The notes under the pieces were generated by a model. The model did no database searches and was not told the origin of the DNA. It saw only the letters and a program-made list of their open reading frames with translations. A DNA stretch of 64,000 nt from Nitrospirales bacterium (GTDB lineage: Bacteria; Nitrospirota; Nitrospiria; Nitrospirales; UBA8639): positions 372,001 through 436,000 of the forward strand of contig JAJDBP010000002.1 in assembly GCA_029261295.1 (NCBI GenBank), written 5' to 3'. Below are positions 40,145-62,586 of the stretch, piece after piece (the first letter of the stretch is position 1; each line of letters opens with the position of its first letter). Position numbers and translations under genes: made by a program.

Positions 40145-40153
40145 TGAATTCAA

Positions 40154-41786: not shown

Positions 41787-41800
41787 AACGCAAAAAGTGA

Positions 41801-41876: not shown

Positions 41877-41886
41877 AAAGTTGTCA

Positions 41887-43217: not shown

Positions 43218-43318
43218 AGTGAAACATGAAAACCTTTTTCAGCCGATGCGCCGCCGAGGCTGAAGCGGAGCCTTAGCCTTTTCACCAATAATGTGCCCCC
43301 AAGCCATCACAGGTAAAA

Positions 43319-47212: not shown

Positions 47213-47240
47213 TGCCGCCGTTCTGGCCATATGTCGGCAG
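47213..47240 (+). promoter_or_regulatory. Putative upstream activator site, LCCL operon 1
   Basis: This conserved dyad reads TGCCGCC-N13-GTCGGCA with central TTCTGGCCATAT. Nearly the same 28 bp occurs at 55713-55740 and a weaker form at 51893-51920. It ends 87 bp before the sigma-54 promoter, as expected for an enhancer site. Confidence 0.7.
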
Positions 47241-47326
47241 TTCAGCCAGAAACCATTTGTTTTGCCTCATGGAGCAAATTCCTTAAAATTCTAATGAAAT
47301 TGAGGGGTTAGGGACTTTGCGCGAAT

Positions 47327-47342
47327 TGGCATTGTGCTTGCT
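47327..47342 (+). promoter_or_regulatory. Sigma-54 promoter, LCCL operon 1
   Basis: TGGCATTGTGCTTGCT matches the -24/-12 consensus TGGCAC-N5-TTGCW with one change (T for C at the last base of the -24 box). Transcription should start near 47353, about 65 bp before the LCCL1 start codon. Confidence 0.85.
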
Positions 47343-47418
47343 CAATGCCTCTACCATGAATGATTCGCAAACATGGTTTCCAAAAATTAATTATCACCAT
47401 CACAAAGGAGTTTCCCTT

Positions 47419-48180
47419 ATGACACGCAAACCTTTTTCTACAACCCTGACACTGGCGGCCCTCAGTCTTTCGTTCAGCACATTGGCTTTCACCCCCGTGA
47501 TGACGGAAGTCGATGGCCGGGCCATTCCCGAAATCGAATGGGACACCACCTTGAAAAAATTTGGATTGGATAAAGACAAATTTCTTGGCCAACGGTTTAC
47601 GGCCATGTGTCCGAAGACTTCGAAAAAGGCTGGAGAAGACAAGGTCGCCGTGTATTCGAGTACTCATTCCATTTGCGAAGCTGGCTTGCTAGCAGGAGCG
47701 ATTGATAGCAAGGGTGGTTTGGTGACGGTACAGGTTAATCCTGGTAGTGAGATACATACCGGCAATCCTAAGCTCACGACGGCTCGTACGCTGAGCGTGG
47801 TTGGGAAGGCGAACGCCGAGGCCGCTGATAAAGTGTATCGTGACCATATTCAACAGATTAAATGGAATTCGAAGTTTACCAGGTCGATCGGTGCGTCCAA
47901 GCATTTAATCGGCCAACAATTTACGTTTGACTGTCCAGCCGCTCCGTCCACTTTGCCTCCACGGCGAATAGTCGGCACCGATTTGTATGCATTTAATACG
48001 ATGACCTGTCTTGCAGCCCTGCATGCTGGGGTTCTGACAAAAGACGGGGGCCTCGTGACTGTCCAGATGAATCCTGGGAAGGCCAAGTTGGTTGGCAGTG
48101 TTCGTGATGGGTTGGAATCGCATGATGGGAATAGTGGCTTGAGCTCCCTCTCCTTTGTGGCCAACCCCGTCAATCCCTAG
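47419..48180 (+). CDS. Secreted double-LCCL-domain protein 1
   Basis: This 253-residue protein has a signal peptide (about 1-25, cut near LAFT). Two tandem LCCL-type domains follow: domain 1 at about 55-130 (GQRFTAMCP, STHSICEAGLLAGAI, GGLVTVQVNPG) and domain 2 at about 163-250 (GQQFTFDCPAAP, GTDLYAFNTMTCLAALHAGVL, GGLVTVQMNPG, SFVANP). Each has two Cys (64/86 and 172/197), probably one disulfide per domain. LCCL domains bind ligands in secreted eukaryotic proteins and are rare in bacteria. AAGGAG lies 8 nt before ATG 47419. Two paralogues lie at 52219 and 55931. Confidence 0.85.
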   Translation: MTRKPFSTTLTLAALSLSFSTLAFTPVMTEVDGRAIPEIEWDTTLKKFGLDKDKFLGQRFTAMCPKTSKKAGEDKVAVYSSTHSICEAGLLAGAIDSKGGLVTVQVNPGSEIHTGNPKLTTARTLSVVGKANAEAADKVYRDHIQQIKWNSKFTRSIGASKHLIGQQFTFDCPAAPSTLPPRRIVGTDLYAFNTMTCLAALHAGVLTKDGGLVTVQMNPGKAKLVGSVRDGLESHDGNSGLSSLSFVANPVNP

Positions 48181-48223
48181 CATTCCGTTGTTGAAGAATG
48201 AATGATCCTCTGACAGCAGATAA

Positions 48224-48259
48224 TGAATGTGGGCCCGGCATAATGGCCGGGCCCATTCA
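48224..48259 (+). promoter_or_regulatory. Strong intercistronic hairpin after LCCL1
   Basis: TGAATG-TGGGCCCGGC and GCCGGGCCCA-TTCA form a nearly perfect stem with a short ATAAT loop and no T run. It lies between LCCL1 and the next gene and may reduce read-through or protect the LCCL1 transcript. A related hairpin follows LCCL3. Confidence 0.65.
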
Positions 48260-48272
48260 GAAGGTGCCGGTT

Positions 48273-48719
48273 ATGCCTCATACTTTTCGAGAAACACACG
48301 GAGCCTCACTTCTGTTTCCTCTTACCTCATTAGTTATGGTGTTTGGAAGTTGGATTGTTCTCGCATTCTTTGAAACATGTATTTTGCAGGGGATTGGCCT
48401 CACCGTTGCTTGTGCTGAAGGCATTCTAGATTTTTCAATCATTGCTGGTATTGCTGCAGTCCTTGCAGCGCTTACTGCGTTTGTTGCCCAAGTCATTTAT
48501 CACCCCATACAACCTTTTCCAACTAAGGCTTCAGAGCTTTCCGTTGCCCTTCTGATAAGTTTCCTTTTGGGTGTGGTGTCCTATGGTTCCAGTCGTTGGG
48601 AATGGTATTTCCCGAATCTTGACATTCAATTTTTCGGCTGGGTTGGAGTCAGTCTTCTCGTTTGCGGCATTGCGCTGATTATTGTGAATTATTGCTCTCG
48701 AGGGAAAAGCCAATCATGA
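48273..48719 (+). CDS. Four-span membrane protein A of LCCL operon 1
   Basis: This protein of about 148 residues has four hydrophobic helices and is paralogous to the next large gene: FETCILQG, FVAQVIYHPIQPFPTKASE and FFGWVGVSLLV align with FETCLLQR, LLARVLLHPFLPFTSLKSE and LFGWIGTSFVV. ATG 48273 is preferred over 48198 because the strong hairpin would lie in the longer frame, and GAAGGTG stands before it. No family recognised. Its end overlaps the start of a 27-codon ORF. Confidence 0.7.
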   Translation: MPHTFRETHGASLLFPLTSLVMVFGSWIVLAFFETCILQGIGLTVACAEGILDFSIIAGIAAVLAALTAFVAQVIYHPIQPFPTKASELSVALLISFLLGVVSYGSSRWEWYFPNLDIQFFGWVGVSLLVCGIALIIVNYCSRGKSQS

Positions 48720-48799
48720 ATAGATTTGCTTGGGTATTTGTCGTGGGGAGCGGATTTTCCATTGTTTCTTTCGTCGCACCTCTTGAGGTTTTCAGGTGA
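48716..48799 (+). CDS. 27-residue coupled membrane peptide
   Basis: A 27-codon ORF begins MNRFAWVFVVGSG, continues as a hydrophobic helix with ISFV-like residues, and ends PLEVFR. Its ATG overlaps the stop of protein A (ATGA) and its own TGA overlaps the GTG of protein B (GTGA), so it bridges both genes with no free base. That double coupling suggests a real microprotein. GAGGG lies about 10 nt upstream of its ATG. Confidence 0.5.
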   Translation: MNRFAWVFVVGSGFSIVSFVAPLEVFR

Positions 48800-49215
48800 C
48801 ACCATTTCTCTTCCCTATTGCGGTGGCATTCGCTGTGTTTGGCGGCGGGATTATTCTGATGTCCTTTGAAACTTGTCTGCTACAACGACCCGATCCGAAA
48901 TTTGATTGTTTAAGTAGTGTTCAATTTGCTGCGATTTTTTCATGTATAGGAGCGGGGCTGACAGGTCTCATGGCGCTTCTGGCCCGCGTTCTCCTGCATC
49001 CATTCTTGCCGTTCACATCCTTAAAGTCAGAAGGGGCATCGGCGTTGCTCGCCAGTCTTTTGCTGATGCTGGTGTCTTATGTCGTCATTCGTTGGGATTT
49101 CACGGGCGGAAATATCGGTATGTATCTTTTTGGCTGGATTGGGACCAGTTTTGTCGTGAGTAGTGCCTCGCTGATGCTGGTGAAACATTTTTCGATGAGT
49201 AGGAGCAGGGCATGA
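48796..49215 (+). CDS. Four-span membrane protein B of LCCL operon 1
   Basis: This 139-residue protein has four hydrophobic helices and is a tandem paralogue of protein A. It starts at GTG 48796, inside the stop of the 27-residue peptide, with GAGG 7 nt upstream. Its ATGA end overlaps the next gene's ATG. No family recognised; the conserved FETC Cys and HPxxPF block between helices 2 and 3 may be functional. Confidence 0.7.
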   Translation: MTPFLFPIAVAFAVFGGGIILMSFETCLLQRPDPKFDCLSSVQFAAIFSCIGAGLTGLMALLARVLLHPFLPFTSLKSEGASALLASLLLMLVSYVVIRWDFTGGNIGMYLFGWIGTSFVVSSASLMLVKHFSMSRSRA

Positions 49216-50135
49216 AGCGGTCAACATGGATCATCGTTGTTGGACTCCTCGCTATTCTTATTGGGGCGAATGGAGTGCTCCAAGGATTGGTTTCTCTTGC
49301 CTCCACCGTCCATCAGGGCATGGAACAGTCAAAAATAACAAACGAGGGAGAGGACAATAATGGTGTGGCCTCTCGTGAGGACCCGTTGCCTCACAGCAAA
49401 GAGCAAGCGACACACGAAAACTCTCAGCAATACGATAAGCCTTTAGGTGATCAGGCATTTGAGCTCCTGGGACGATGGACTGCTGATAGTAACTCATGGG
49501 CCATCATTCGTACTGTTGTCTATCTTCTTGTGGCAGGAGCCTATTTGATTGCAGGTATTATCCTGCTCATGAAGCCTTATGGTCCTCGAGTATTTTTCTG
49601 GATTATGGGAGTCTCGATTTTCTGGTCTTTAATGCAAATAATCTTCTATTCCCATGCTGAGATGGAAATGCTTCTCGCTGTGGCACCGGTGTTTGGCCCC
49701 AGCGTGGTCATTGATGTGATGCTTGTCGCCATTGTTTGGGCCGCGACTCGCGTCCAACCGTTAGAGGAAGGCAGAAATGAGGGTCACACGTCATCGCCAG
49801 CCGAGGGATTCAGTCTGGCAACGACAATGAATGTATGGGTTCCAAAAATTACTGGTATTTTCGCAGCCTTGTTTGCGCTGATCTTTCCCTTCTGGATACT
49901 CGGTGTACCTGGGGTGGAAAACACGTATGCACAAGGATGGAGAATGGGTCTTGATGTCATCATGTACTACCCCATTGCGTGGGTCACAATTTTTGGTGTT
50001 TCTTGGTTTCTGAAAAAGGCTATTCCTCTTGACCGTCAGACAGCTTTGAATGTTGTGGTTTCTCTTTGTCTCTTCATATTTTTCAGCATGGCTCTTGTAC
50101 GGCTTGGCCAGGCATTTAGCCTTATTACGACCTGA
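49212..50135 (+). CDS. Multi-span membrane protein with conserved C-terminal half, LCCL operon 1
   Basis: This 307-residue protein has an N-terminal span (WIIVVGLLAILIG), a hydrophilic, acidic loop at about 30-90, then about six further hydrophobic segments. Its C-terminal half is closely related to the gene at 53224: both read GxPGVENxxAxGW, GLDVIMYYPI and GVSW, and end ALxRLGQAF. No known family comes to mind. ATG 49212 overlaps the stop of protein B (ATGA). Confidence 0.75.
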   Translation: MKRSTWIIVVGLLAILIGANGVLQGLVSLASTVHQGMEQSKITNEGEDNNGVASREDPLPHSKEQATHENSQQYDKPLGDQAFELLGRWTADSNSWAIIRTVVYLLVAGAYLIAGIILLMKPYGPRVFFWIMGVSIFWSLMQIIFYSHAEMEMLLAVAPVFGPSVVIDVMLVAIVWAATRVQPLEEGRNEGHTSSPAEGFSLATTMNVWVPKITGIFAALFALIFPFWILGVPGVENTYAQGWRMGLDVIMYYPIAWVTIFGVSWFLKKAIPLDRQTALNVVVSLCLFIFFSMALVRLGQAFSLITT

Positions 50136-50368
50136 TGACGGGTGGATGTGCAAATTATAGCCGTAGCGCATTACGGGAAGCCCCAAAAAATGCGCGGATC
50201 GCTGCAAATGAGCTTGCGGACAACGTGGAAGTAGAAGGCGGGAGCATTCGAAGCGCCAGACAGGGGAATTTCTATATCTGGGATGCTGGCGAGAGTTCCG
50301 GCGATTCTCGAAAAGTCGAAAAAGATGTTCGCGTGGTGACGACCATGACGTTTTATTTAACAGATTAA
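50135..50368 (+). CDS. Small hypothetical protein in LCCL operon 1
   Basis: A 77-codon ORF begins at ATG 50135, overlapping the TGA of the preceding gene by one base. It encodes a hydrophilic protein starting MTGGCANYS with no hydrophobic segment; TFYLTD ends it. The coupled start supports translation but nothing identifies a function. It may be a lipoprotein-like fragment that has lost its signal. Confidence 0.4.
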   Translation: MTGGCANYSRSALREAPKNARIAANELADNVEVEGGSIRSARQGNFYIWDAGESSGDSRKVEKDVRVVTTMTFYLTD

Positions 50369-50413
50369 ACAAGGAATTCGTGTGAGAAAATCTTACCGGG
50401 TAGGAGGTGGACG

Positions 50414-51193
50414 ATGGCTAAATGGATTATGTTGATTGTGGTCTGTTTGCTCATGAGTGGGCCGGCCCTGGCGAATACTGATAAGAAGGCTCAGTTATGG
50501 GAACTTTTCAAAGAAGGTAACCGGTTGAAATATGTTGAACTCGTCCTTACTGACCTGGAACAGTGGGACGCTATGACGTTATTGACTGCCGCAACTATGG
50601 CCGTGCAGGAGGCACATCTCAACGATGCCGAGCTTCTTTATCAGATGGGAACCCTTCGAGCCATAATCGACAGCAAATACTATGTTTCGACCGAGAAAGG
50701 CGGCAATGGGCCAGCCCCAGCCATTCAAAGTCTTATTTTTTCAATTCAAATGCCCCGGTCTAGACTTTCGCAGAGACAAATCAATAGTACTTATCAGGCC
50801 ATCGTACCGCGAATTGAGCAATGGAAGCCTCGTTATAGCCGCGCCTATGACCCTGGTTGGAAATACCAGACAGCACCTGATTTTCCGCAGGTGCAAAACG
50901 CGTTTGATGCCGCCAAGGTCAAGCGAATCCAGGTGGTGCAGGGTTGGTTGACTCTTTTCAGCGACAAGGCCTATGTCGATGCATATGATCTCGTCAAATC
51001 GTACGAATCTAATCAATCAACAGACCAACCGGCGGATGAAAAACTTCGTGCCGAGGAAACGATGCAGCGCATCGAGAACGACCTCGGTGTTGCCGGCTAT
51101 ATGGCTGAGGTCGCGAAAATACAAGAGATCATCGCAGCAACCAGATGTTTTAAAACGGCAGCAGACGGCTCCGAAAAGGAAGTTGAATGTTGA
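50414..51193 (+). CDS. Exported helical protein, LCCL operon 1
   Basis: This 259-residue protein has a signal peptide (about 1-21, ending ALANT). The mature part is helical with LTDLEQWDAMTLLTAATMAVQEAHLNDAELLYQMGTLRA, a TPR-like pattern, and YDPGWKYQ and RAEETMQRIENDLGVAGYM near the end. The C-terminal two-thirds of the 54189 protein is a paralogue (YDPGWKSE, KAEETMQRIETQLDIDGFM). Function unknown. GGAGGTGG lies before ATG 50414. Confidence 0.75.
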   Translation: MAKWIMLIVVCLLMSGPALANTDKKAQLWELFKEGNRLKYVELVLTDLEQWDAMTLLTAATMAVQEAHLNDAELLYQMGTLRAIIDSKYYVSTEKGGNGPAPAIQSLIFSIQMPRSRLSQRQINSTYQAIVPRIEQWKPRYSRAYDPGWKYQTAPDFPQVQNAFDAAKVKRIQVVQGWLTLFSDKAYVDAYDLVKSYESNQSTDQPADEKLRAEETMQRIENDLGVAGYMAEVAKIQEIIAATRCFKTAADGSEKEVEC

Positions 51194-51892
51194 ACGATTA
51201 TGACAACTCTACAAGCAGGAACTGATCTTCCACAGGTTACGCCCTCATGGCGTCCTGCATGATACGCATTGATCGATATCGCGTATAAAGTTTCAACTGA
51301 GACCTTGTCATGATCCCTCTCCCTTTGTGAGCGAGGGTGTGGGTGATGGAAAGATCTTCTTGGAAAGTTGGAACAATTAAATGTCGTCATGGAAAACATA
51401 TGCTGAACCGAAGCCTAGCCATATTGAAGGCCATCGTAGGTGTACATGGGAGTCCGGGTTGGGCGGGGGAGTCCACGCTCATCGAAAGCCGGGAGCTTGG
51501 CTTTGCCATCTAGAAACCAACCGACTGGTATTTTTTAAAAGAGCCTTCGGCTCGATTCGTTTGCTTAGACCGGAGAGGCCCACAGGGGAAAATTCCACAT
51601 GGGTGAAATTTGCGATGTTCACAACGAATGCGCAGAGTCTGGATCTGTAATTTTCTCTCTTTCTCATCCTTCCTCCAATTTCCCGAAGCATCGTGTGGTA
51701 GGAAACCCCGAACGCCCGAAGAATTTTTTCTTCTTCAGCCGCGCTATCCTGTCCGATTCTTCGACCTTCAATTAAAATTGCCCCTTTTGCTCTTTAGTCA
51801 TAGAGATGACTTCTTGTCTCAGCGTCATGGTGTAAACGAACTGTTGGTTGATTAACCTGCAGTCGAGGACGTTGAGGGGGTATTCAGCCGTT
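51194..51892. other. Gene-poor gap between LCCL operons 1 and 2
   Basis: Short reading frames here have no ribosome-binding sites and no protein-like pattern. A weak stem CCCTC-N13-GAGGG lies at 51315-51337 and may end operon 1. No repeat was recognised. Confidence 0.4.
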
Positions 51893-51920
51893 TTGGCTGT
51901 ATGTCGACAGTGGCACCGCA
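51893..51920 (+). promoter_or_regulatory. Putative upstream activator site, LCCL operon 2
   Basis: TTCAGCCGTTTTGGCTGTAT followed by GTCGACAG aligns base for base with the dyads at 47213 and 55713, although the left arm is changed. It ends 85 bp before the sigma-54 promoter. Confidence 0.6.
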
Positions 51921-52004
51921 CCTTCCTTGGTTTTCTTGCCGATTCCACATCACCGCGTCATGGAAATTTCATGAAAATAAAGGCGTGAGGCGTGTTTCAT
52001 GAAT

Positions 52005-52020
52005 TGGCACTGTGCTTGCT
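52005..52020 (+). promoter_or_regulatory. Sigma-54 promoter, LCCL operon 2
   Basis: TGGCACTGTGCTTGCT is a full match to the -24/-12 consensus TGGCAC-N5-TTGCW. The same 16-bp block occurs before LCCL3. A start near 52031 would give a leader of about 190 nt. Confidence 0.9.
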
Positions 52021-52218
52021 TTGTTATGGGAGCAAGGGGCGTATTCAAGGAGATGGCAGGAACAAAAGAATGGACAACTTATGGAAACCATAGATTTTTC
52101 CTATGCCTTACATCTGTTACTGAAGTGATGTTCCAAAGAAAAAGTATTTCGCACAAGAGATGGATAACACCAAAAAAATTTCTGCATTTCTACTCATCAT
52201 CTCAAAGGAATCTCTCTT

Positions 52219-52980
52219 ATGACACGCCCTGATTTCCCAACTACTCTGACGCTTCTGGCTCTTAGTTTTTCGTTGAGCACGTTGGCCTTTACCCCTGCCC
52301 CGACCGAAGTCGATGGTCGGGTTCTACCAGAAATCAAATGGAAGACAACCTTGGGAACGTTTCATCTAGATAAGGAGGCATTTTGGGGACAGCGGTTTAC
52401 GGCCATGTGTCCCTCGACTTCCCAGAAAGCCAGTGCTGATACAAGTGGGGTGTGCCCTAGCACGCATTCCATTTGCCAAGCCGGACTCCAGGCTGGAGCC
52501 ATTGATGGTAAGGGTGGTCTCGTGACCGTACAGTTGAATCCGGGTGTGGGGATTCCTGCCGGTGGTGCTGGTAAAGACATGGCGCGCAGTCTGAGTGTGG
52601 TGGGGAAGGGAAATTCTAAAGCTATCGACCAGATCTACCGTGACCATATTCAACGCATAACATGGGATACGAGATTTACGCTGACGGGTTTTGCCTATAA
52701 GCCTTTGCTTGGACAACGCTTTACGTTTGACTGTCCAGCGGCTCCCAAGAATGTACCCTCGCGACATTTGGTGGGCACCGATTCCTATGCCCTTGCCAGT
52801 ATGATCTGCCCAGCAGCGGTTCATGCGGGAGCGATGACATTGGCTGGGGGCTTGGTGACAGTCCAAATGAATCCGAGGAGGAAGAAGCTGGTTGGAAGTG
52901 TGCGGAATGGAATCGCAACGAAAGACGGGTCAAGTGGTCTGGGAGCAATCTCTTTTGTCGCGAATCCGGTTACACCTTAA
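52219..52980 (+). CDS. Secreted double-LCCL-domain protein 2
   Basis: This 253-residue paralogue of LCCL1 has a signal peptide (about 1-25), domain 1 (GQRFTAMCP, STHSICQAGLQAGAI, GGLVTVQLNPG) and domain 2 (GQRFTFDCPAAP, GTDSYALASMICPAAVHAGAM, GGLVTVQMNP, SFVANP). Domain 1 has one additional Cys (SGVCPST), so a free thiol or an intermolecular disulfide is possible. AAAGGAA lies before ATG 52219. It heads operon 2 and is separated from the next intact gene by a decayed fragment. Confidence 0.85.
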   Translation: MTRPDFPTTLTLLALSFSLSTLAFTPAPTEVDGRVLPEIKWKTTLGTFHLDKEAFWGQRFTAMCPSTSQKASADTSGVCPSTHSICQAGLQAGAIDGKGGLVTVQLNPGVGIPAGGAGKDMARSLSVVGKGNSKAIDQIYRDHIQRITWDTRFTLTGFAYKPLLGQRFTFDCPAAPKNVPSRHLVGTDSYALASMICPAAVHAGAMTLAGGLVTVQMNPRRKKLVGSVRNGIATKDGSSGLGAISFVANPVTP

Positions 52981-53108
52981 CGCGTTTGTCTTCACAGAGT
53001 AGTGATAGCGATGAATAGGAGTGAACATGCAGAGCTCAATACAATGACCGGGCTCATGAATCAGAGGCCGATTCTGGCTGATCATGTGAAAGGAACGAAC
53101 ATCACCCC

Positions 53109-53180
53109 ATGTTTTTTCCTTCAACTGTGACGATGTTGGTGCTTGGGAGTTGAGTCGAATTGGCAGTCCTTGAAATATGC
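53109..53180 (+). pseudogene. Remnant of a four-span membrane gene (operon 2)
   Basis: From ATG 53109 the frame reads MFFPSTVTMLVLGS, then TGA, then VELAVLEIC. This aligns with FPLTSLVMVFGSWIVLAFFETC of protein A in operon 1, with TGG changed to TGA at 53151-53153. The rest of the gene is gone. It shows that operon 2 derives from an operon-1-like arrangement. Confidence 0.65.
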
Positions 53181-53223
53181 ACAATACCAAAATGTATGTA
53201 TTTACTTTTCTGGAGATAGCGTG

Positions 53224-54141
53224 ATGAACCGACCAAAATGGATGATATTCATTGGTGTCCTTGCAATAATTTTTGGTGTATGGGGAGTTGTGAATCAACT
53301 AGTCACCATCGGGTCTTCTTCTTTCTATCTTGCCATGGAACCAGAAATGGAAGCTGAGAGTCAGGGGAGGGGCGAACACGCTCCTGCTGCGGGATCAACT
53401 TCACCCATTATCGAGGAAATTCACAACGGCGAAACAATTCAAGAAAGGGAAATAGCTCAAGCTGATGAGGACGTAGGGGATTTGCGTCATACGTATATCA
53501 AGCAAGTCTTTGCCCTTGGAATCATCTCTCTTCTCATTTCAGGAGCCTATGTACTGTCCGGCGTATTTCTCATGACGAAGACATATGGAATACGCACTTT
53601 TTACTATGCCATGGCTGTGTCCATTCTATGGTCGGTGGTGCAAACGATCGTCGTCTCCCAAGCTCAGCTTCATATGTTCCTGTTCTTCATTGTGATGAGG
53701 ATGCCAAGCATGCTCATTGATCTCATTCTTGCGACTATTGTTTTCATCGGCTTTCGTTATCAGGGGCCCGGACCAACCGTCACCACAAACCGAAAGTTAT
53801 TTGCAGATGCGGCCTCAATCTTTTTAAAGCCCATGGACGTAGGCGTTCCTGTTATTTCTGGCGCGCTCGCGGCCCTTTGTGCTTTGGTCATTCCGTTCTG
53901 GATCATAGGGATCCCTGGTGTCGAGAATGACTTTGCTCGTGGTTGGAAAATTGGACTCGATGTCATCATGTACTATCCCATCACTTGGGTCATCGTGTTT
54001 GGTGTTTCCTGGGGTCTGAGAAGGGTCATCCCTCTCAACGGCCAAAGATCCTTGACTGTTGTGGTCGCTTTTTGCTTTATGATTTTCTTCGCTGTTGCAC
54101 TGCTGCGGCTTGGCCAGGCCTTTCAGATAATGACGATGTGA
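53224..54141 (+). CDS. Multi-span membrane protein, LCCL operon 2
   Basis: This protein of about 305 residues is a paralogue of the 49212 protein with the same topology: N-terminal span (MIFIGVLAIIFGVWGVV), an acidic loop of about 60 residues, then six or so further spans and the conserved GIPGVEN, GLDVIMYYPI and ALLRLGQAF blocks. The ATG at 53224 has GGAG upstream. No family name is known to me. Confidence 0.75.
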   Translation: MNRPKWMIFIGVLAIIFGVWGVVNQLVTIGSSSFYLAMEPEMEAESQGRGEHAPAAGSTSPIIEEIHNGETIQEREIAQADEDVGDLRHTYIKQVFALGIISLLISGAYVLSGVFLMTKTYGIRTFYYAMAVSILWSVVQTIVVSQAQLHMFLFFIVMRMPSMLIDLILATIVFIGFRYQGPGPTVTTNRKLFADAASIFLKPMDVGVPVISGALAALCALVIPFWIIGIPGVENDFARGWKIGLDVIMYYPITWVIVFGVSWGLRRVIPLNGQRSLTVVVAFCFMIFFAVALLRLGQAFQIMTM

Positions 54142-54188
54142 CGATGGGGTTTAGACGTGGGAGCAAGTCATAAAAGAATGGGGAGAAG

Positions 54189-55409
54189 ATGATGCGACGA
54201 GTTCTGCTACTTGTGGGGCTATGGCTCTGTCTGACGGCAGGAAATTGTGTGCCGCAACAGGAAGTGGTGTTGTTTGAGAATCCCAGTGAACAGTATCTGA
54301 ATATGACTGGTGTCATCGACGAAGGTCTGGAATATGTCGTCAGAGTGATCTATGTCCAGAACGCTCGTGCCAGCGGCTGTCCTACCTACGGCAAAGACTC
54401 GGACCTTTGCCAAACAAAGCCGGAAGAGTTCACGTACATTCCGCAAATTGAGGGAAACACACATCGTGTCCATATCCCTCTCAAAGAACTTTCCCCGGGT
54501 GCCAATTCGTGGTGGGAGCCATGGGACATCGCTATCTGTGTTGGGCCCAGAGATCCCAACGCTGTGCCTCACCAATGTCAACGGCTATTCTATTTCACAG
54601 AGGATACACACGACGGCCATCAGACTATTGACCTCGTCTGCACACAACAATTTTGGTGTTTTGAAGGACTGCAGGTCGAGAATGTTAGTGAGGTGAATCA
54701 GGAGTACGTCGTGAATATTCGAAAAAAACAACAGTTGAAGTCTCAAAACACCACGACTATTGTGGAGTTAGATCAACTGCTGAGAGATGAAAATTGGGCG
54801 GCATTTATCGATCGGGTTCTCGCCGACTTTGAAGAAGAGGACACCATCACGCTCCTTATGGCAGCCAATATGGCTGTACATGAACAACGCCCCAATGATG
54901 CCATGTTGCTGTATCATGTTGGAACTATTCGGGCTCAAGTCGATGGAAAACATTACACCCCACTCAAGAAGGATGGTGAGAGTCCTGCCCTAGCGATACA
55001 AAACCTTATAGATTTGACTCAGTCGGAAATGCGTGCGTTTTTACCTGCCGAACTCCTTCAAATGTATCAGGCCGTGGTTCCGCACCTGAAGCAATGGAAT
55101 TCTCACTATACGAACATGTATGATCCTGGATGGAAATCTGAAGCCGTCCTCAATCTTCAGGACGTCCAAATGTATTTTGAGGAAGCGAAAACCAAGCGAA
55201 TTCACGATTTGCAAGGATTCATGACTCTTTTTGAGAATGAGACGTACGCAGAAGCGTATGAAGTCGCATGGATGTATGAATGGGATCCCACGCTGGATCA
55301 GCTGGCAGAAGCAAAGAGAAAAGCGGAGGAAACGATGCAGCGTATCGAGACACAACTCGATATTGATGGCTTTATGGCACCCATTTCCAAGCAGAGAAGA
55401 TTTGGTTGA
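54189..55409 (+). CDS. Exported two-domain protein, LCCL operon 2
   Basis: This 406-residue protein has a signal peptide (about 1-20, near LTAGNC, not a good lipobox). Residues 20-175 form an extra Cys-containing beta-rich domain (QEVVLFENPSEQYLN, CPTYGKDSDLC, CVGPRDP, CTQQFWC) that the operon-1 paralogue lacks. Residues about 190-406 are the helical TPR-like part shared with the 50414 protein (LLMAANMAVHEQRPNDAMLLYHVGTIRA, MYDPGWKSE, AEETMQRIETQL). Function unknown. Confidence 0.75.
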   Translation: MMRRVLLLVGLWLCLTAGNCVPQQEVVLFENPSEQYLNMTGVIDEGLEYVVRVIYVQNARASGCPTYGKDSDLCQTKPEEFTYIPQIEGNTHRVHIPLKELSPGANSWWEPWDIAICVGPRDPNAVPHQCQRLFYFTEDTHDGHQTIDLVCTQQFWCFEGLQVENVSEVNQEYVVNIRKKQQLKSQNTTTIVELDQLLRDENWAAFIDRVLADFEEEDTITLLMAANMAVHEQRPNDAMLLYHVGTIRAQVDGKHYTPLKKDGESPALAIQNLIDLTQSEMRAFLPAELLQMYQAVVPHLKQWNSHYTNMYDPGWKSEAVLNLQDVQMYFEEAKTKRIHDLQGFMTLFENETYAEAYEVAWMYEWDPTLDQLAEAKRKAEETMQRIETQLDIDGFMAPISKQRRFG

Positions 55410-55712
55410 GAGAATTCCATGATTCAGATACTCAGATGATGTGCCAGAGCACATTGACGGTGATACGAACGATACCGCTCTTTTAGGTCGAACGCCCTAA
55501 TTCTTATACCCGAGAAGAGGTGTCTGAATCTGAGGTTTCTTGTTCTTCAAACCCTTCCGTGATTTTCACGAAATATCCCCTCGAAGAAATCCCCCAACGC
55601 ATTCAGAATTTCTGGTTCGACTTCAATGTTCTATGGTTTCCCTCTTAGTCCTCCATCCAATATTTCCACAGAGATCTTTTAGCAAACGTCGTCAACCATG
55701 GTGCTGGTGTTA
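55410..55712. other. Intergenic stretch before LCCL operon 3
   Basis: No credible gene or strong hairpin is seen. The part from about 55697 begins the region conserved with the LCCL1 upstream sequence. Confidence 0.4.
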
Positions 55713-55740
55713 TGCCACCGTTCTGGCCATATGTCGGCAG
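55713..55740 (+). promoter_or_regulatory. Putative upstream activator site, LCCL operon 3
   Basis: TGCCACC-N13-GTCGGCA is identical to the operon-1 dyad except for one base in the left arm, and the flank GCTGGTG on the left is also shared. It ends 87 bp before the sigma-54 promoter. Confidence 0.7.
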
Positions 55741-55826
55741 TGTTCCTAAGTCCAAGTTGCTCTAACTGTAGATGTATATTTCTTGAAATCGTAAAGAAAT
55801 AAAGGAGTTATAGGTTTTCGAGAGAT

Positions 55827-55842
55827 TGGCACTGTGCTTGCT
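55827..55842 (+). promoter_or_regulatory. Sigma-54 promoter, LCCL operon 3
   Basis: TGGCACTGTGCTTGCT again matches TGGCAC-N5-TTGCW completely. Transcription should start near 55853, about 78 bp before the LCCL3 start codon. Confidence 0.9.
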
Positions 55843-55930
55843 GTAGTGATTAATCAATACACGATACAGGGCACTTCAATAAAGAAGTTCCCATATCCAA
55901 TTACTCTCATACTCACAAAGGAGCCCTCTC

Positions 55931-56656
55931 ATGGCACACACAACTTTTTCCACAACTCTGACACTTGCGGCCATCAGTCTTTCATTGAGTACTTTGGCAT
56001 TCACCCCCGCCATGACGGAAGTCGATGGCCGATCCATTCCGAAAATTGAATGGACCACGACCTTGGAAAAGTTCCAAATGAATAATGATAAATTTCTTGG
56101 ACAACGGTTTACCGCGATGTGTCCGAAGACTTCTCAAAAAACAAAGGTTGGCGATGACAAGACTGCTGTCTATCCACGTAAACATGCCATTTGCCAAGCT
56201 GGCTTACAATCAGGAGTCATTGATAGCAAAGGCGGTCTCGTAACCGTGCAGTTGATTCCTGACGGGATGAGTGTGGTTGGCAAGTCTGACGCGGATGTGA
56301 CAGACAAGATTTATCGAGAGCATGTACGCGGAATTAAATGGGATACGAAATTTACAAAGACCGGTTTTGGGTACAAGCAATTAATTGGACAACGTTTTAC
56401 TTTTGACTGTCCGGCGGCCCCAAGCAAGTTGCACTCCCGACGAGTGGTTGGCACCGATTCCTATGAGTTTAAGAGTATGATTTGCCGGGCAGCAGTGCAT
56501 GCCGGGAAGCTGACGATGGACGGCGGGCTCGTGACGGTCCAGATGAATCCTGGGACGAAAAAGTTGGTGGGCAGTACGCGGAATGGCATCGAAACAAAAA
56601 ATGGCAATAGCGGCTTGAGTGCCCTCACCTTTGTCGCGAATCCGGTTAACCCATAA
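55931..56656 (+). CDS. Secreted double-LCCL-domain protein 3
   Basis: This 241-residue protein has a signal peptide (about 1-25), domain 1 (GQRFTAMCP, KHAICQAGLQSGVI, GGLVTVQLIPDG) and domain 2 (GQRFTFDCPAAP, GTDSYEFKSMICRAAVHAGKL, GGLVTVQMNPG, TFVANP). The second domain is the clearest LCCL match of the three. Domain 1 ends about 12 residues earlier than in LCCL1/2. AAAGGAG lies upstream of ATG 55931. The genes behind it differ from those of operons 1 and 2. Confidence 0.86.
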   Translation: MAHTTFSTTLTLAAISLSLSTLAFTPAMTEVDGRSIPKIEWTTTLEKFQMNNDKFLGQRFTAMCPKTSQKTKVGDDKTAVYPRKHAICQAGLQSGVIDSKGGLVTVQLIPDGMSVVGKSDADVTDKIYREHVRGIKWDTKFTKTGFGYKQLIGQRFTFDCPAAPSKLHSRRVVGTDSYEFKSMICRAAVHAGKLTMDGGLVTVQMNPGTKKLVGSTRNGIETKNGNSGLSALTFVANPVNP

Positions 56657-56704
56657 CATTCAGATCTTTACGAAACGATGAGCCTGATCATGTCACGACA
56701 AAAA

Positions 56705-56734
56705 TCTGGGCCCGGTAATTTGGCTGGGTCCAGA
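56705..56734 (+). promoter_or_regulatory. Intercistronic hairpin after LCCL3
   Basis: TCTGGGCCCGG and GCTGGGTCCAGA pair imperfectly around TAATTTG. The sequence resembles the hairpin after LCCL1 (GGGCCCGGCATAATGGCCGGG) at a similar position behind the stop, which suggests shared mRNA processing or attenuation. Confidence 0.55.
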
Positions 56735-56778
56735 ATATTTCCGGTGCCAAGCACGATGAAACGTAGGAGGAGCCTTCA

Positions 56779-57075
56779 ATGATTGGGGTTGTGATAGCTC
56801 TCATATTCCTCGTCGGATCAATAGGCATCATGATTGGAATTATTATCATCAATCAGATCAATGGTACCTATAGCTCAGCATTGGCCGTGCCGATCTACAA
56901 TCTGCTTTGTCTCATTTTGGCTTTGGTGGGACTTGGTATTTCAGGCATTGCCCGTCAGAAAAATAAAGAGATGAAACTTGCTCGACGCACGTTCGTGTTC
57001 GGTCTTATCTGCGTGGTCATACTTGCAGTACTCTTTCCCATTTCTAATACAGGGTCACTGAGTGTGATGCATTAA
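56779..57075 (+). CDS. Small three-span membrane protein, LCCL operon 3
   Basis: This 98-residue protein has three hydrophobic helices (about 3-27, 33-57, 70-88) with a short basic loop KNKEMKLARR between helices 2 and 3. GGAGGAG precedes ATG 56779. No family recognised; it has no sequence relation that I can see to the operon-1 membrane proteins. Confidence 0.65.
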   Translation: MIGVVIALIFLVGSIGIMIGIIIINQINGTYSSALAVPIYNLLCLILALVGLGISGIARQKNKEMKLARRTFVFGLICVVILAVLFPISNTGSLSVMH

Positions 57076-57151
57076 GAGGTCTTTACTATAGTTCTCATGT
57101 GGAGAGTGGAAGTATTTCGAATCAATCTTACATACACAAGGAGGGCGCATC

Positions 57152-57505
57152 ATGTTACTTCAACTTTTTAGTCTTTTTAAGGGTGTCGGAATGCTCTTTT
57201 CAATAGGGTGTCTTGTGTATCTGTTCGTGGGGAAAAATGCCGTTTTAAAGCAAAGGCTTTTACTTCCGTTTTTTGTGGTCAGTAGCGCGCAAGTGGTGGG
57301 CACAGCCTACTTTACTCAAGGACTGATCGTGGCCTTGGTTATGGCCGCGATTGCGGCCTTCATCTCTCAGTTGTTTATGCGTACCCTGAAAATTTGTCAG
57401 CCATGTGGGCGAATTGTGAATGATTACCGTGGAAATGTTCCAGATGTCTGCCCATCTTGCCAGACTTCGGTCAATCGAGATGGCGTTGCATCCGTTAGCG
57501 TATGA
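57152..57505 (+). CDS. Small membrane protein with C-terminal zinc ribbon, LCCL operon 3
   Basis: This 117-residue protein has three hydrophobic helices in residues 5-82 and then CQPCGRIV...CPSC, a zinc-ribbon-like tail of about 30 residues, probably cytoplasmic. AAGGAGGG lies before ATG 57152. Unknown family. The tail type resembles the one on the MscL protein earlier in the window. Confidence 0.65.
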   Translation: MLLQLFSLFKGVGMLFSIGCLVYLFVGKNAVLKQRLLLPFFVVSSAQVVGTAYFTQGLIVALVMAAIAAFISQLFMRTLKICQPCGRIVNDYRGNVPDVCPSCQTSVNRDGVASVSV

Positions 57506-57543
57506 CCAGAGATGTGTGAAGAACGATATCTGGAGAGACATTC

Positions 57544-58188
57544 ATGAAACTCATGTTCTACTCATGTTGGTTGGTGTTGCTCTACATCTACTTCGGCATG
57601 ACGGAGTTGAGTGACATGAATGTCCTCCAGTCTGTGCTCGGGCCAATGGACATCTTCCTGGCAGTAGTGGTGCCCGTTGGGTTTTCACTATCAATCATAA
57701 GGTTTATGAATGAAGGGCAGTTCACTTTTAAAGGCGCACTCTATTCCTTGGGGTTTTTGTTGGTGTTTACATTAAGCCAACTGGTGCATGGTACCGTTGG
57801 CAGTGTGACGTCTGATGCAGTGGCCATGACAAAAGGACCTCCCATTGAAGAGATGATCGCACGCCTTGTCGATCGAGCACTAATCGCCCACGGTGCTGAC
57901 CAAGGCGCCCAAGCAGCAGCTTTATTGTATTTAGTGTCAGGAGTGAAGACGATGTATAAATCCGAGGATCATCAATACAAATTCTTTACTCCCACCCAAG
58001 AGCAACGCGAAGAGAGAATAAAGTGGAATAGTGCTAATACCAAAGTAGAGACAATGAAAGGTAAGTTGCTCGATCAGGCAAAAGCGATTTCACATCGAAC
58101 AATTTTCCACCTTTCATCCTTCTTTGTTCTTTTTTCCGCCACGTTCCTATATGAAATTCATCGTGCCAATAGTATGAGCAGGCCATGA
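57544..58188 (+). CDS. Membrane protein, LCCL operon 3
   Basis: This 214-residue protein has three N-terminal hydrophobic helices (to about residue 85), a hydrophilic helical region with GPPIEEMIARLVDRALIAHGADQGAQAA and VKTMYKSEDHQYKFF, and a final hydrophobic helix near 190-205. The Met codon at 57544 starts 38 bp after the zinc-ribbon gene. No family recognised. Its last bases overlap the next gene's ATG (ATGA). Confidence 0.65.
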   Translation: MKLMFYSCWLVLLYIYFGMTELSDMNVLQSVLGPMDIFLAVVVPVGFSLSIIRFMNEGQFTFKGALYSLGFLLVFTLSQLVHGTVGSVTSDAVAMTKGPPIEEMIARLVDRALIAHGADQGAQAAALLYLVSGVKTMYKSEDHQYKFFTPTQEQREERIKWNSANTKVETMKGKLLDQAKAISHRTIFHLSSFFVLFSATFLYEIHRANSMSRP

Positions 58189-58463
58189 CTAGCATTCAAG
58201 ATAAACTAAAACAGATATTTTTTAATAAACTGGCAGGTGTGATTTTTTGGATACTCAGTTGGCCTTTTGTGAGTATGCTGTTTGACTCAAATCCCCATTA
58301 TCCTACATTCATCAAGCCTATTGGCGTTTTTTCTAGATCTTCCCTTGCTCCTGAGGGGTATTACTGGAGTGCTTCATATTTTGAAACGATGGTTATTCCT
58401 GCAGCTGTTTTTTGGTTGGGTTTGATTGGTACCATGGTCTTTTTGCCAAGTAAGCAGAGATGA
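58185..58463 (+). CDS. Small two-span membrane protein, LCCL operon 3
   Basis: This 92-residue protein has hydrophobic helices at about 16-32 and 70-87, with an intervening, probably periplasmic loop containing SNPHYPTFIKPIGVF and PEGYYWSASYFE. ATG 58185 overlaps the previous stop (ATGA), so it is translationally coupled. No family recognised. Confidence 0.65.
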   Translation: MTSIQDKLKQIFFNKLAGVIFWILSWPFVSMLFDSNPHYPTFIKPIGVFSRSSLAPEGYYWSASYFETMVIPAAVFWLGLIGTMVFLPSKQR

Positions 58464-58603
58464 CTGCACGATTTGTTGATTAAACACTTTTTGACTACCA
58501 GGCTGCCCAAAGAGCGAAAGCAGTCATCTTATTTTTTTACTTTTGCTACTCTTTGAAGTCATACAAGCGAAGGGAAACCCATAGCAGGCATGGGGACGTC
58601 TTT

Positions 58604-59014
58604 ATGAAATCGTTGGAAAGATTTGAATTAGCCAAGCATCACGGACCATACGAGAGATGGCCCAAGGATACTGAATTGATAAAGGATGGGTTCCCGACCG
58701 GCAGGACGATTCCCGGATATCTTATCGAAGCACAATATGAACATATCCATGGATATCTTCTTGTGACATCCTGGGATTGCCCATTTGAAGAAATGCAAAC
58801 ATTTTTGTTGCTGTCTCCTGAGTTAGAAGTCATGTTTGAGGAAACGATAGGAGTAGCTTACGTTTCTGTTTGCATAGAGAGACACGAACCAGTCAATGAC
58901 CACACTGTCCTTTTTCACTGCAACGATAACCTAGACATTCGCGCAACCGTAGGTACAGTTAACACCCTCAGGTTGCAACAACTTCAACGACCAGTTGGGC
59001 AACTTGGGGCCTAA
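58604..59014 (+). CDS. Soluble hypothetical protein at the end of LCCL operon 3
   Basis: This 136-residue protein has no signal peptide or membrane span. A mixed alpha/beta pattern is visible: PGYLIEAQYEHIHGYLLVTSWDCPFEEMQTFLLLS and AYVSVCIERHEPVNDHTVLFHCND. ATG 58604 is preferred over the TTG at 58553 because GGGG lies just upstream. No family recognised. Confidence 0.55.
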   Translation: MKSLERFELAKHHGPYERWPKDTELIKDGFPTGRTIPGYLIEAQYEHIHGYLLVTSWDCPFEEMQTFLLLSPELEVMFEETIGVAYVSVCIERHEPVNDHTVLFHCNDNLDIRATVGTVNTLRLQQLQRPVGQLGA

Positions 59015-59045
59015 CCTTTTGAATCCATAAAGGAGACATGAAACA

Positions 59046-59618
59046 ATGAAAGCCATTCTGCTACTTCGAATAATGTTGGTCGTGATGGGCCTATTAATGG
59101 CCGCTACTGTCAGTTTTGCTGAAAAAGATAAAACGAATGTTTCTGAACTTCAGCAACTCGCCGAACAAGGGGATGCCAAGGCCCAAGTCAGTCTTGGCCT
59201 GGAGTATAGGCGGGGCCGTGACTTACCTCAGGACTATGGGCTGGCCAGAAATTGGTTTCTTAAAGCTGCAGAGCAAGGTAGTGCAGAAGGCCAAAATAAT
59301 CTAGGATTGATGTATGATCATGGTCGTGGAGTTGAAAAAGATTTCGTCCAAGCGCGGAAGTGGTATCTGCAGGCGGCGAAGCAGGGACATAGCAATGCGC
59401 AATATAATCTTGCACTCCTCTATACCAACGGACAGGGTGTCCCTCAAGATGATATTGAAGCCTATGTCTGGGCCAATATTGCCGCGGCTCAAGGGAATTC
59501 CGGTCTTGCCAAAGACCTGCGCAATAAACTCAGAAACATTCTTGGCCCAACCTGTATTTCGAAAGCTCAAGAACAATCGAAGGAATATTTCGAAAAGTAC
59601 GTCGCTCCCTTCCAGTAA
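59046..59618 (+). CDS. Exported Sel1-repeat protein
   Basis: This 190-residue protein has a signal peptide (about 1-25, ending SFAEK) and three Sel1-like repeats at about 40-150 (AQVSLGLEYRRGRDLPQDYGLARNWFLKAAEQG, LGLMYDHGRGVEKD, LALLYTNGQGVPQDD). Sel1 repeats bind proteins; exported ones often act in envelope complexes or signalling. AAGGAGAC lies before ATG 59046. A terminator 60 bp after the stop ends the operon. Confidence 0.9.
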   Translation: MKAILLLRIMLVVMGLLMAATVSFAEKDKTNVSELQQLAEQGDAKAQVSLGLEYRRGRDLPQDYGLARNWFLKAAEQGSAEGQNNLGLMYDHGRGVEKDFVQARKWYLQAAKQGHSNAQYNLALLYTNGQGVPQDDIEAYVWANIAAAQGNSGLAKDLRNKLRNILGPTCISKAQEQSKEYFEKYVAPFQ

Positions 59619-59700: not shown

Positions 59701-60033
59701 TTCACTTCTTCTGCATTCTCCGCACGCCAGAAATTCATTCAACGTCAATGTGTATTTCCGTTAAATTTAGAAAACAAATCTGTTTATCTACCCTTTGTAA
59801 TTGAGCCACTCATCATTAATTCTACGTACTCTCATAATTGCGACTTTTGAAGCTTTGCGCTATAAATTTCAGGCGCAAAGAAGGGTGGCAATTACCTCTA
59901 TGTGGTTTTCCTTAGTAGTGTAGAGCTATTACATGAAAACGAGCTCTGGTAGTATCCATATCCCCAAAGAACTTAGCGGAAGCGATATTCTTTGGTCTGA
60001 TTAATTTGAGACTGGGAAAATTAAGGATTGTCA
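59701..60033. promoter_or_regulatory. Upstream region of the kinase/regulator operon
   Basis: This gap has no gene. A dyad CTTTGCGC-N12-GCGCAAAG lies at 59853-59880 and could be an operator or a stem-loop. I see no sigma-54 motif and no copy of the 28-bp upstream site here. Confidence 0.45.
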
Positions 60034-62586
60034 GTGCGCGAAAACAAAAAAGACCAAGCTTCTCTCCGTAATGAGTTTCAAGAGCTTTGCGCGGTCTCAG
60101 ATCCCTTTTCCATGTTCGTGGGGATGTGTGGAGTCCTTCGTATCTGTAATTTCCAGACAAACGCGATGATTTGGGAGTTGGGAGAATCGGGAGCTTTTGG
60201 TTACTCCAGGTCAGACTTTGGAGTGACGAATCATTGGTGGCAGGACCGTCTACATCCAGAAGATCAGGGAGGAGTCCTCGCAGCGCTTGAGAAAGCGCAG
60301 GACTCCGCGAATTCCATTTGGGCGGCTGATTACCGGTTTCGGGGTGCAGATGGAAGTTATGCCTATATTTGCGACCGTGGGCAATTCGTCGATCAGAATG
60401 GGGGCGGCTCATGTCGCCTTGTAGCATCTATGATTGATGTCACAAATTGTAAATGGATTGAAGAAGGGTACCGTGAAAGTGACGAAACGACACGATTGAT
60501 TGTTGATAATGCTCTTGATGCCGTGATTTCTATGGATGCAGAAGGCATCATTAGTGGGTGGAATCATCAAGCCGAAGTGATCTTTGGCTGGATGCGAGAG
60601 GAAGCGATTGGGCAGAGCTTAGAAACAACGATCGTTCCATCGCAATATCGCGCAGCTCATCGTGCCGGCTTGAGACGATTGGTTGAAACCGGGGAGGCAA
60701 AGCTCCTTAAACAACGAATCGAAATCACGGCCCTGCACAAGGATGGTCATGAGTTTCCTGTTGAACTCAGTATTACGCCTCTTCACTCCCATGGAAAGCT
60801 GGTTTTTAGTGGATTTCTTCGAGATATTACTGCGCGAAAAGCGGCGGAAAAAGCTGCACAAGGAAATACACGGTTTCCCGATGAAAACCCCTATCCTGTG
60901 CTTCGGCTCGCGTATGATGGGACGATCCTTTATGCCAATCCAGCGAGTGGCGATCTTTTGACTGCATGGGGTTCTCAGGTGGGGCAAGTTGCCCCGTCGG
61001 CTATTTGCCAAGTGATTGGAGATGTAAGTGTCACTCGTTCCAATTACTATCTTGAAGTTGAATACGAGCCGAATACGTATTCCTTGTTTTTCGTCCCCTT
61101 TCATGAAGAGGAATTTGTGACGGTCTACGGAAAAAATAGTACCAAGCGTATCCAGGCTGAGCGGGAAATGCATGCCGCAAAAGAAGCCGCAGAACTCGCG
61201 AATAGAGCCAAGAGTGAATTTTTGGCCACCATGAGTCATGAATTGCGAACGCCTCTGACCGGAATTCTTGGGTATGCCCAACTTCTCCAAAATGACAAAA
61301 GTGTTGCCACCACTCATCAGGCGGCCCTTACGGTTATTGAGCAGTCAGGCGAACATTTACTTGGCCTTATCAATGAAATTTTAGATCTTACTCGAATTGA
61401 GGCGGGAAGCCTTGAGGTGTACATCGAACCGTTTTCTCTAGAAACCATGCTCGACGCGTTAGTGAACATCATGCGGGCGCGAGCTGAAGACAAAGGGTTG
61501 ATGTTTACGTTTGAGCATCTATCAGAATTTCCTCGGACCGTGATGGGGGACATCAAACGATTGCGTCAAGTGTTGATCAATATGCTCGACAATGCCATCA
61601 AGTATACAAAAGAAGGAGGCATTGCGTTGAAGGTGGGCTTTCATGATGGTTCCATTCGGTTTTTAGTCGAGGATACCGGTCTTGGTATCAAAGAGGAGGA
61701 CCTCACTGCGATTTTTGAAGCCTTTCAGCAAGTACATCATTCCAACTTGATGCCAGAAGGGACGGGTCTTGGACTGACCATCAGCCAGAAATTGGTCTCG
61801 TTAATGGGTGGGACTCTGGAGGCTTCAAGTCACTATGGTCAGGGTAGTATGTTTTGGTTTGACCTCGACCTTCCTGAAGCCACAGTCAATGAACAAGATC
61901 TGGAACAGGAAGAACGAGTCATACTTGGAGTGGCCGGGCCGAAGCGAAAGATATTAGTGGTTGACGATAAGCCTGATAACCGGCAGTTTTTAGCGGATGC
62001 GTTACGGCCCCTCGGCTTTTCTGTGCAGCAAGCCAAAGACGGGCAAGAATGCCTCCAGCAAGTAGCCGAAAGTAAGCCCGATGCGATTTTGATGGACTTG
62101 CGTATGCCACGCTTGAATGGGCTAGAAGCTACGCGGCGCATTCGTGCCCTTCCTGAGGGAGGAAGCCTCATAATTTTGGGTGTCTCGGCGAGTTCTTTTG
62201 ATCACAATCGGACCGAATGCCTGGATGCAGGAGCTGACGGGTTCTTGTCAAAACCTTTTCGAGTGGGGAAATTGATACGAATGCTCTGCGAGCATCTTCG
62301 CCTCGAAGTCATTTATGAGCAACAAAAACCTGCAGCATCTAAGGAGTTTCCTGATGGAGTGATTTCATCGACAGGAATGACTTTACCTCCAGCGGAATGG
62401 GTGAAGGAGCTTCAAATGCTTGTGCTCTCGGGGGATATGGCACAAATACTCGATCGTCTTCAGGCGCTTGAGCAAACAGAGCCCACCTATCAGAACTTTG
62501 TTGAACGTGTGCGAACATTAGCTCAGCAGTTTCAAATAAAAAAACTGCGACTGTTTCTATCGAGTCTCAAAGGCCCAGACGCATGA
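60034..62586 (+). CDS. Hybrid PAS sensor histidine kinase
   Basis: This cytoplasmic kinase of about 850 residues starts at GTG 60034 (AAGGA 6 nt upstream; TTG 60028 is also in frame). Order: PAS_3-like domain (about 30-140), PAS domain (145-265), a third PAS-like part (280-370), HisKA with phosphoacceptor His402 in ATMSHELRTPL, HATPase_c with DNAIKYT, EDTGLGI and GTGLGL, and a C-terminal receiver with VVDDKPDN, Asp688 in LMDLRMP and KPF, then a helical tail. No membrane span is seen, so the signal is probably internal. The downstream regulator gene overlaps its stop (ATGA). Confidence 0.95.
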   Translation: MRENKKDQASLRNEFQELCAVSDPFSMFVGMCGVLRICNFQTNAMIWELGESGAFGYSRSDFGVTNHWWQDRLHPEDQGGVLAALEKAQDSANSIWAADYRFRGADGSYAYICDRGQFVDQNGGGSCRLVASMIDVTNCKWIEEGYRESDETTRLIVDNALDAVISMDAEGIISGWNHQAEVIFGWMREEAIGQSLETTIVPSQYRAAHRAGLRRLVETGEAKLLKQRIEITALHKDGHEFPVELSITPLHSHGKLVFSGFLRDITARKAAEKAAQGNTRFPDENPYPVLRLAYDGTILYANPASGDLLTAWGSQVGQVAPSAICQVIGDVSVTRSNYYLEVEYEPNTYSLFFVPFHEEEFVTVYGKNSTKRIQAEREMHAAKEAAELANRAKSEFLATMSHELRTPLTGILGYAQLLQNDKSVATTHQAALTVIEQSGEHLLGLINEILDLTRIEAGSLEVYIEPFSLETMLDALVNIMRARAEDKGLMFTFEHLSEFPRTVMGDIKRLRQVLINMLDNAIKYTKEGGIALKVGFHDGSIRFLVEDTGLGIKEEDLTAIFEAFQQVHHSNLMPEGTGLGLTISQKLVSLMGGTLEASSHYGQGSMFWFDLDLPEATVNEQDLEQEERVILGVAGPKRKILVVDDKPDNRQFLADALRPLGFSVQQAKDGQECLQQVAESKPDAILMDLRMPRLNGLEATRRIRALPEGGSLIILGVSASSFDHNRTECLDAGADGFLSKPFRVGKLIRMLCEHLRLEVIYEQQKPAASKEFPDGVISSTGMTLPPAEWVKELQMLVLSGDMAQILDRLQALEQTEPTYQNFVERVRTLAQQFQIKKLRLFLSSLKGPDA

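Follow-up and report, generated by a model that had tools for sequence, protein, structure and literature searches.

Control of exported envelope proteins by a two-component system and sigma-54 is known from the PEP-CTERM PrsK/PrsR pair, to which the system described here bears a likeness. LCCL domains have been studied in animals and malaria parasites, as binders of bacterial surfaces. Animal LCCL proteins interact with components of the bacterial wall, and Lgl1 binds lipid A (PMC10892792). Here we describe a system built from this known domain and a known type of regulator, the system itself being new. It lies in the window, a stretch of 64,000 nucleotides from a Nitrospirales bacterium (contig JAJDBP010000002.1, positions 372,001 to 436,000), and comprises three operons, each led by an exported double-LCCL protein (LCCL1, LCCL2 and LCCL3), and genes for a hybrid histidine kinase, a sigma-54 activator and a lone receiver. 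Taken as a whole, the locus is best explained as an exchangeable regulon in which sigma-54 controls exported envelope proteins, LCCL proteins being one type of cargo. We give this explanation about even weight; its regulatory part, judged from sequence, is very probable.

Pfam family PF03815 (gathering score 22.6 bits) matched LCCL1, LCCL2 and LCCL3 in two stretches each, with 85.7, 84.6 and 101.6 bits (E 2.6e-24, 5.5e-24 and 2.9e-29), and every one of the six single domains scored above the cut-off. A genome-wide profile search of the 4.06-Mb genome returned no LCCL domains besides these six. Each protein consists of a signal peptide and two LCCL domains and nothing else, its signal-peptide-like N-terminus, read by eye from the sequence, ending in LAF in all three. 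LCCL2 and LCCL3 are 64-69% identical to LCCL1 along the whole length. An earlier, sequence-only reading of the window had proposed the LCCL identity, the signal peptides and an origin of the three genes by duplication. The profile search with the LCCL family model that it had suggested was strongly positive (E 5e-24 to 3e-29, two domains per protein) and bears out the first proposal; the visible N-terminal segments and the identity among the copies uphold the other two. The best sequence match of an LCCL protein in the PDB was the LCCL domain of cochlin (E 0.0011).

Each LCCL gene is preceded by a -24 GG/-12 GC element (TGGCATTGTGCTTGC at 47327, TGGCACTGTGCTTGC at 52005 and 55827), in agreement with the earlier description of the operons as sigma-54-type. 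The pattern TTGGCAYTGTGCTTGC has three exact matches in the genome, each at an LCCL gene; allowing two mismatches added two genome matches, against three for a reversed-pattern control. With a simple sigma-54 matrix, the five cassette LCCL genes, namely those of the window and two in G030, the genome of another genus in the same family, scored 19.6-20.8. Maxima were 17.8 among 3000 random 350-bp stretches and 17.4 among eight LCCL genes from outside the cassette.

A second element, TTYTGGCYRTATGTCGRCAG, starts 106-114 bp upstream of each -24 element. Across the genome it is matched exactly at three places and no more, each paired with an LCCL promoter; the next best match has three mismatches. 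The element shows partial dyad symmetry. Such an upstream position and such symmetry are expected of the enhancer of a sigma-54 activator. An enhancer matrix trained solely on the three LCCL sites of the window exceeded the 99% background of 11.8 at four of the six promoter regions of the group that had not been used in building it: those of the G030 receiver gene (16.3), one G030 LCCL gene (13.3), the lone receiver gene of the window's own genome (12.8) and the RTX genes of G005, a same-genus genome considered below (12.1).

The candidate regulators of these sites are encoded directly downstream of the Sel1-repeat gene, at 60028-64819. They were absent from the sequence-only account, which also lacked the enhancer-like sites and, described below, the empty insertion site and the RTX cargo, and which ended the unit at 59618; its real extent reaches about 64819, just past the window, and the activator end and the lone receiver were read from genome sequence outside it. 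The activator matched PF00158 (E 1.8e-72) and PF02954 (E 1.5e-8), with a visible GAFTGA loop, and the lone receiver gene has a sigma-54 site of its own, TGGCATTCAAGTTGC (L019:4292). In a comparison with NCBIfam, the activator fell below every named equivalog cut-off shown. Regulation of the PEP-CTERM PrsR type was considered and rejected (343.6 bits against the TIGR02915 cut-off of 502.6), and neither the LCCL proteins nor the Sel1 protein showed a PEP-CTERM tail.

Activators at least 75% identical to this one occur in 3 of the 48 genomes of the family, among them both genomes with the LCCL cassette (Fisher p 0.0027 for the association, only a guide as the genomes are related). More distant relatives, in G005 (62%) and G031 (51%), are also found near exported proteins with sigma-54 sites. 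The G005 locus concerned (L068, G005:C130, 1310-11445) is a paralogous set of a kinase with a membrane N-terminus, the 62% activator and a lone receiver, with several sigma-54 sites and exported proteins of 173 and 208 amino acids like those beside the first G005 set. In G031 (L078, 8439-10704), the 51% relative adjoins an exported 125-amino-acid protein directly behind TGGCATTGTGATTGC.

The same cassette is conserved in G030 (locus L016), where two double-LCCL genes, each with a promoter (TGGCACTATGCTTGC and TGGCATTCAGCTTGC), are accompanied by homologues of mem1, the 307-amino-acid and 406-amino-acid proteins, mem98, zr117, m214 and the Sel1 protein (identities in the table). Kinase, activator and receiver are 76%, 76% and 71% identical to those of the window; no m92 homologue was found in the G030 locus. 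There, the mem1c homologue shares an operon with zr117, m214 and Sel1, and mem98-type genes stand in both operons. Because families of operons 1 and 3 thus mix in G030, the three operons of the window look like parts of one system. Three further features of L016 were seen: a p153 relative split over two reading frames (3288-3757), through either gene breakage or misassembly; a short open reading frame (8713-8901), perhaps a copy cut short, whose product is 47% like the first 50 residues of the 50414 protein; and a SIMPL/DUF541 protein (8945-9670; PF04402, E 7.5e-13) within the cassette, without counterpart in the window.

The sequence-only reading had noted two families shared by operons 1 and 2, and both stand (49212/53218, 41%; 50414/54189, 43% identity), one with the adjustment that the gene placed at 53224 can begin at 53218; mem1b and mem1c are paralogues to be added to them. 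Its statement that operon 3 carries a different set is correct within the window, where operon 3 and operons 1-2 have no downstream family in common, but not in the second genus. The 307-amino-acid family has only two copies in the genome. The survey of co-occurrence proposed earlier found its full-length relatives in 2 of 395 genomes of the phylum, always with the LCCL cassette; three further distant matches to its profile span the first half only.

These data bear on the view that the genes have no joint function and that an insertion hotspot has collected unrelated membrane genes along with duplicates of exported genes, the promoters having been copied in the duplication. The separate downstream set of operon 3 would suit such a view, as would a lone alphaproteobacterial LCCL gene without these neighbours (see below). 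However, the same families stand beside LCCL genes in a second genus, with operon-1 and operon-3 families in one operon, full-length 307-amino-acid relatives occur only alongside the cassette, and each of the five cassette LCCL genes retains its promoter amid DNA that has otherwise diverged. We therefore consider the absence of a joint function very improbable.

Comparison with the sequences of relatives shows the 18-kb block to be inserted between uvrA and crcB: the gap between the two genes measures 102-989 bp in five same-genus genomes, where the site is empty, versus 17.9 kb here. In a sixth, G005, kinase (80%), activator (80%) and receiver (72%) follow uvrA with their order unchanged. A profile search of that genome found no LCCL domain; instead, the same promoter, here TGGCACTGCGCTTGC, precedes a pair of paralogous exported proteins with RTX repeats (PF00353). 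This RTX cargo lies at L067 (G005:C115) 7574-9403, with its promoter at 9794, and adjoins kinase, activator, receiver and uvrA. Just before uvrA in the window (39239-44065) are genes for two FRG-domain proteins, a DUF4917/SIR2-like protein and a 248-amino-acid protein of no family, possibly a defence island. The viral contigs and plasmids searched contained no LCCL relatives and so gave no support for carriage by a phage or plasmid.

That one promoter type serves LCCL proteins in some genomes and RTX proteins in another might also mean that the two are alternative matrix or attachment proteins, switched on with factors for their export and anchoring in adhesion or biofilm formation. Both domains are typical of extracellular proteins, and the bacterial exterior is commonly under sigma-54 control (PMC3162934). 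Against this, no exporter, PEP-CTERM tail or surface anchor was recognised, and the LCCL proteins are small (241-253 amino acids). An adhesive role is unlikely.

Within the phylum, the LCCL domain is present in 11 of 395 genomes, and elsewhere in the same order it occurs in lone exported tandem-LCCL proteins. The nearest relative outside the cassette is a protein from an alphaproteobacterial metagenome-assembled genome (JANQGO010000010; L018 5026-5832), 45-50% identical over the full length and closer to the cassette proteins than the same-order LCCL proteins are; the contig scan that gave it as the single relative used only two short peptide patterns. None of the cassette families was found among the neighbours of its gene. 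In a domain tree, the cassette and alphaproteobacterial proteins had their first domains in one group and their second domains in another (support 91/82 and 98/98), so the tandem form predates the split between them. Full-length trees did not settle the order of the operon duplications. Judging from these sequences, transfer of LCCL genes between phyla is likely. The earlier view of an unusual LCCL-based bacterial system is supported in part; tandem-LCCL exported proteins as such also occur alone elsewhere. No paper joining LCCL with Nitrospira was found, and searches on bacterial or prokaryotic LCCL turned up mainly parasite and animal papers, most subscription journals lying outside the coverage of both.

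We propose that the regulon works as follows. The kinase lacks predicted membrane spans and for this reason probably responds to a signal inside the cell, not to the LCCL ligand. Directly or via its receiver domains, it would phosphorylate the activator encoded next to it. Once bound to the enhancer-like sites, each about 110 bp before its promoter, the activator would drive transcription by sigma-54 RNA polymerase from all three LCCL promoters as well as from that of its own lone receiver gene. The double-LCCL proteins would go to the periplasm or outside via their signal peptides, and inner-membrane partners (the mem1, 307-amino-acid and mem98 families) and periplasmic partners would be made alongside them. 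By analogy with the animal proteins, the most likely ligand of the LCCL domains would be lipopolysaccharide (LPS), peptidoglycan or some other glycan of the surface; the membrane proteins may anchor, process or respond to the LCCL-ligand complex as part of an inner-membrane/periplasmic assembly. Such an LPS- or glycan-binding envelope complex is a tentative proposal, somewhat short of even probability. A wider picture, of a new envelope system in which a horizontally moving, sigma-54-controlled platform keeps its regulatory core fixed while exported cargo (multiplied LCCL operons or RTX) is swapped, and in which LCCL proteins act as LPS/glycan receptors or effectors with dedicated membrane partners, is possible, though less likely than not.

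The same protein set could be read as a weapon, with secreted LCCL proteins harming the surfaces of competitors, membrane proteins conferring immunity and the paralogous operons forming an arms-race array. Indeed, each paralogous exported protein is followed by divergent small membrane proteins, the exchanged cargo of G005 is likewise a pair of paralogous exported proteins, and the LCCL domain of cochlin limits bacterial spread in the ear (PMC10892792). Yet the LCCL proteins contain no known killing domain, and they are 64-69% identical from end to end, without any hypervariable stretch that might be a toxin. Moreover, membrane families follow LCCL2 and LCCL3 inconsistently, and operons 1 and 2 include large exported partners that simple immunity does not need. 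An antibacterial function is distinctly improbable.

Several points weigh against the regulon and the envelope complex that we favour. The full cassette is known in two genomes only. Two scores of the enhancer matrix stayed below the 99% background of 11.8, namely 10.8 at the second G030 LCCL gene and 7.7 at the receiver gene of G005, so the enhancer-like site is not equally clear everywhere. One conserved cysteine pair is kept per LCCL domain here, and an animal-type ligand site may for this reason not be conserved. The AlphaFold model of LCCL3 was poor (pLDDT, the predicted local distance difference test, 43; four-sequence alignment). Even so, a fold search with this model gave only two chains with Z of at least 2, the cochlin LCCL structure 1jbi (Z 2.9, 67 residues, 27% identity) and, tied with it at the top, an unrelated polymerase; the match to 1jbi speaks weakly for an LCCL fold. 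The model of the 406-amino-acid partner was too weak to interpret (pLDDT 50, two sequences), and no Pfam family matched this protein; zr117 gave sub-threshold zinc-ribbon matches only, and neither NCBIfam nor PHROGs offered a usable family for the partner proteins tested. As no family matched, the roles given to the partner membrane proteins are guesses.

Table. Genes and regulatory elements of the island in window coordinates; percentages are amino acid (aa) identities
Feature	Position	Strand	Evidence
Enhancer-like site 1, TTCTGGCCATATGTCGGCAG	47221..47240	+	exact match to TTYTGGCYRTATGTCGRCAG
Sigma-54 promoter 1, TTGGCATTGTGCTTGC	47326..47341	+	-24/-12 pattern search and matrix score
LCCL1, exported double-LCCL protein, 253 aa	47419..48180	+	PF03815, two stretches
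mem1b, membrane protein, ~5 predicted spans	48198..48719	+	hydropathy; 49% to G030 homologue
mem1c, mem1b paralogue, ~4 predicted spans	48796..49215	+	hydropathy; 37% to mem1b
307-aa membrane protein copy 1, ~7 predicted spans	49212..50135	+	41% to copy 2
Exported helical protein, 259 aa	50414..51193	+	corresponds to C-terminal part of 54189 protein, 43% over 215 aa
Enhancer-like site 2, TTTTGGCTGTATGTCGACAG	51891..51910	+	match to TTYTGGCYRTATGTCGRCAG
Sigma-54 promoter 2, TTGGCACTGTGCTTGC	52004..52019	+	-24/-12 pattern search
LCCL2, exported double-LCCL protein, 253 aa	52219..52980	+	PF03815
307-aa membrane protein copy 2	53218..54141	+	63% to G030 homologue
Exported 406-aa protein, Cys-containing N-terminal and helical C-terminal part	54189..55409	+	56% to G030 homologue
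Enhancer-like site 3, TTCTGGCCATATGTCGGCAG	55721..55740	+	match to TTYTGGCYRTATGTCGRCAG
Sigma-54 promoter 3, TTGGCACTGTGCTTGC	55826..55841	+	-24/-12 pattern search
LCCL3, exported double-LCCL protein, 241 aa	55931..56656	+	PF03815; 74% to G030 copy
mem98, membrane protein, ~3 predicted spans	56779..57075	+	63% to G030 homologue
zr117, membrane protein, Cys-rich C-terminal tail	57152..57505	+	66% to G030 homologue
m214, membrane-associated protein	57544..58188	+	50% to G030 homologue
m92, small membrane protein	58185..58463	+	hydropathy
p153, soluble, no family, start uncertain	58553..59014	+	G030 relative with frame change
Exported Sel1-repeat protein	59046..59618	+	PF08238, E 1.2e-31; 76% to G030 homologue
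Hybrid histidine kinase	60028..62586	+	Pfam PAS, HisKA, HATPase, receiver; no membrane span by hydropathy
Sigma-54 activator	62583..64082 (window ends 64000)	+	receiver, Sigma54_activat with GAFTGA, Fis helix-turn-helix (HTH)
Lone receiver gene	64403-64819, beyond window end		follows activator

Double-LCCL operons under one private switch in a bacterium offer a tractable setting for studying which ligand the domain has and how bacteria employ it. A fixed regulator with differing exported cargo in one chromosomal slot can, in addition, guide the search for further islands of this kind and for membrane families that are as yet unknown.

Compared with described LCCL proteins (cochlin, Limulus factor C, Lgl1/CRISPLD2 and Plasmodium CCp/LAP), those of the window share an LCCL domain above the cut-off and the character of exported proteins and, with Lgl1, the tandem arrangement. 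Unlike them, they are bacterial, consist only of a signal peptide and two LCCL domains, and come with membrane partners and a sigma-54 switch. The lone bacterial tandem-LCCL proteins, of the same order or of JANQGO010000010, are likewise exported and have two LCCL domains, but their genes are without the partner families, regulators and sigma-54 promoter of the cassette. With the NtrC-type activators AtoC, NtrC and ZraR, the activator of the window shares a receiver, an AAA+ domain with GAFTGA, a Fis HTH and an enhancer-like site before a -24/-12 promoter; it differs from them in being paired with a PAS hybrid kinase and a lone receiver, and in its putative targets, which are exported LCCL or RTX proteins.

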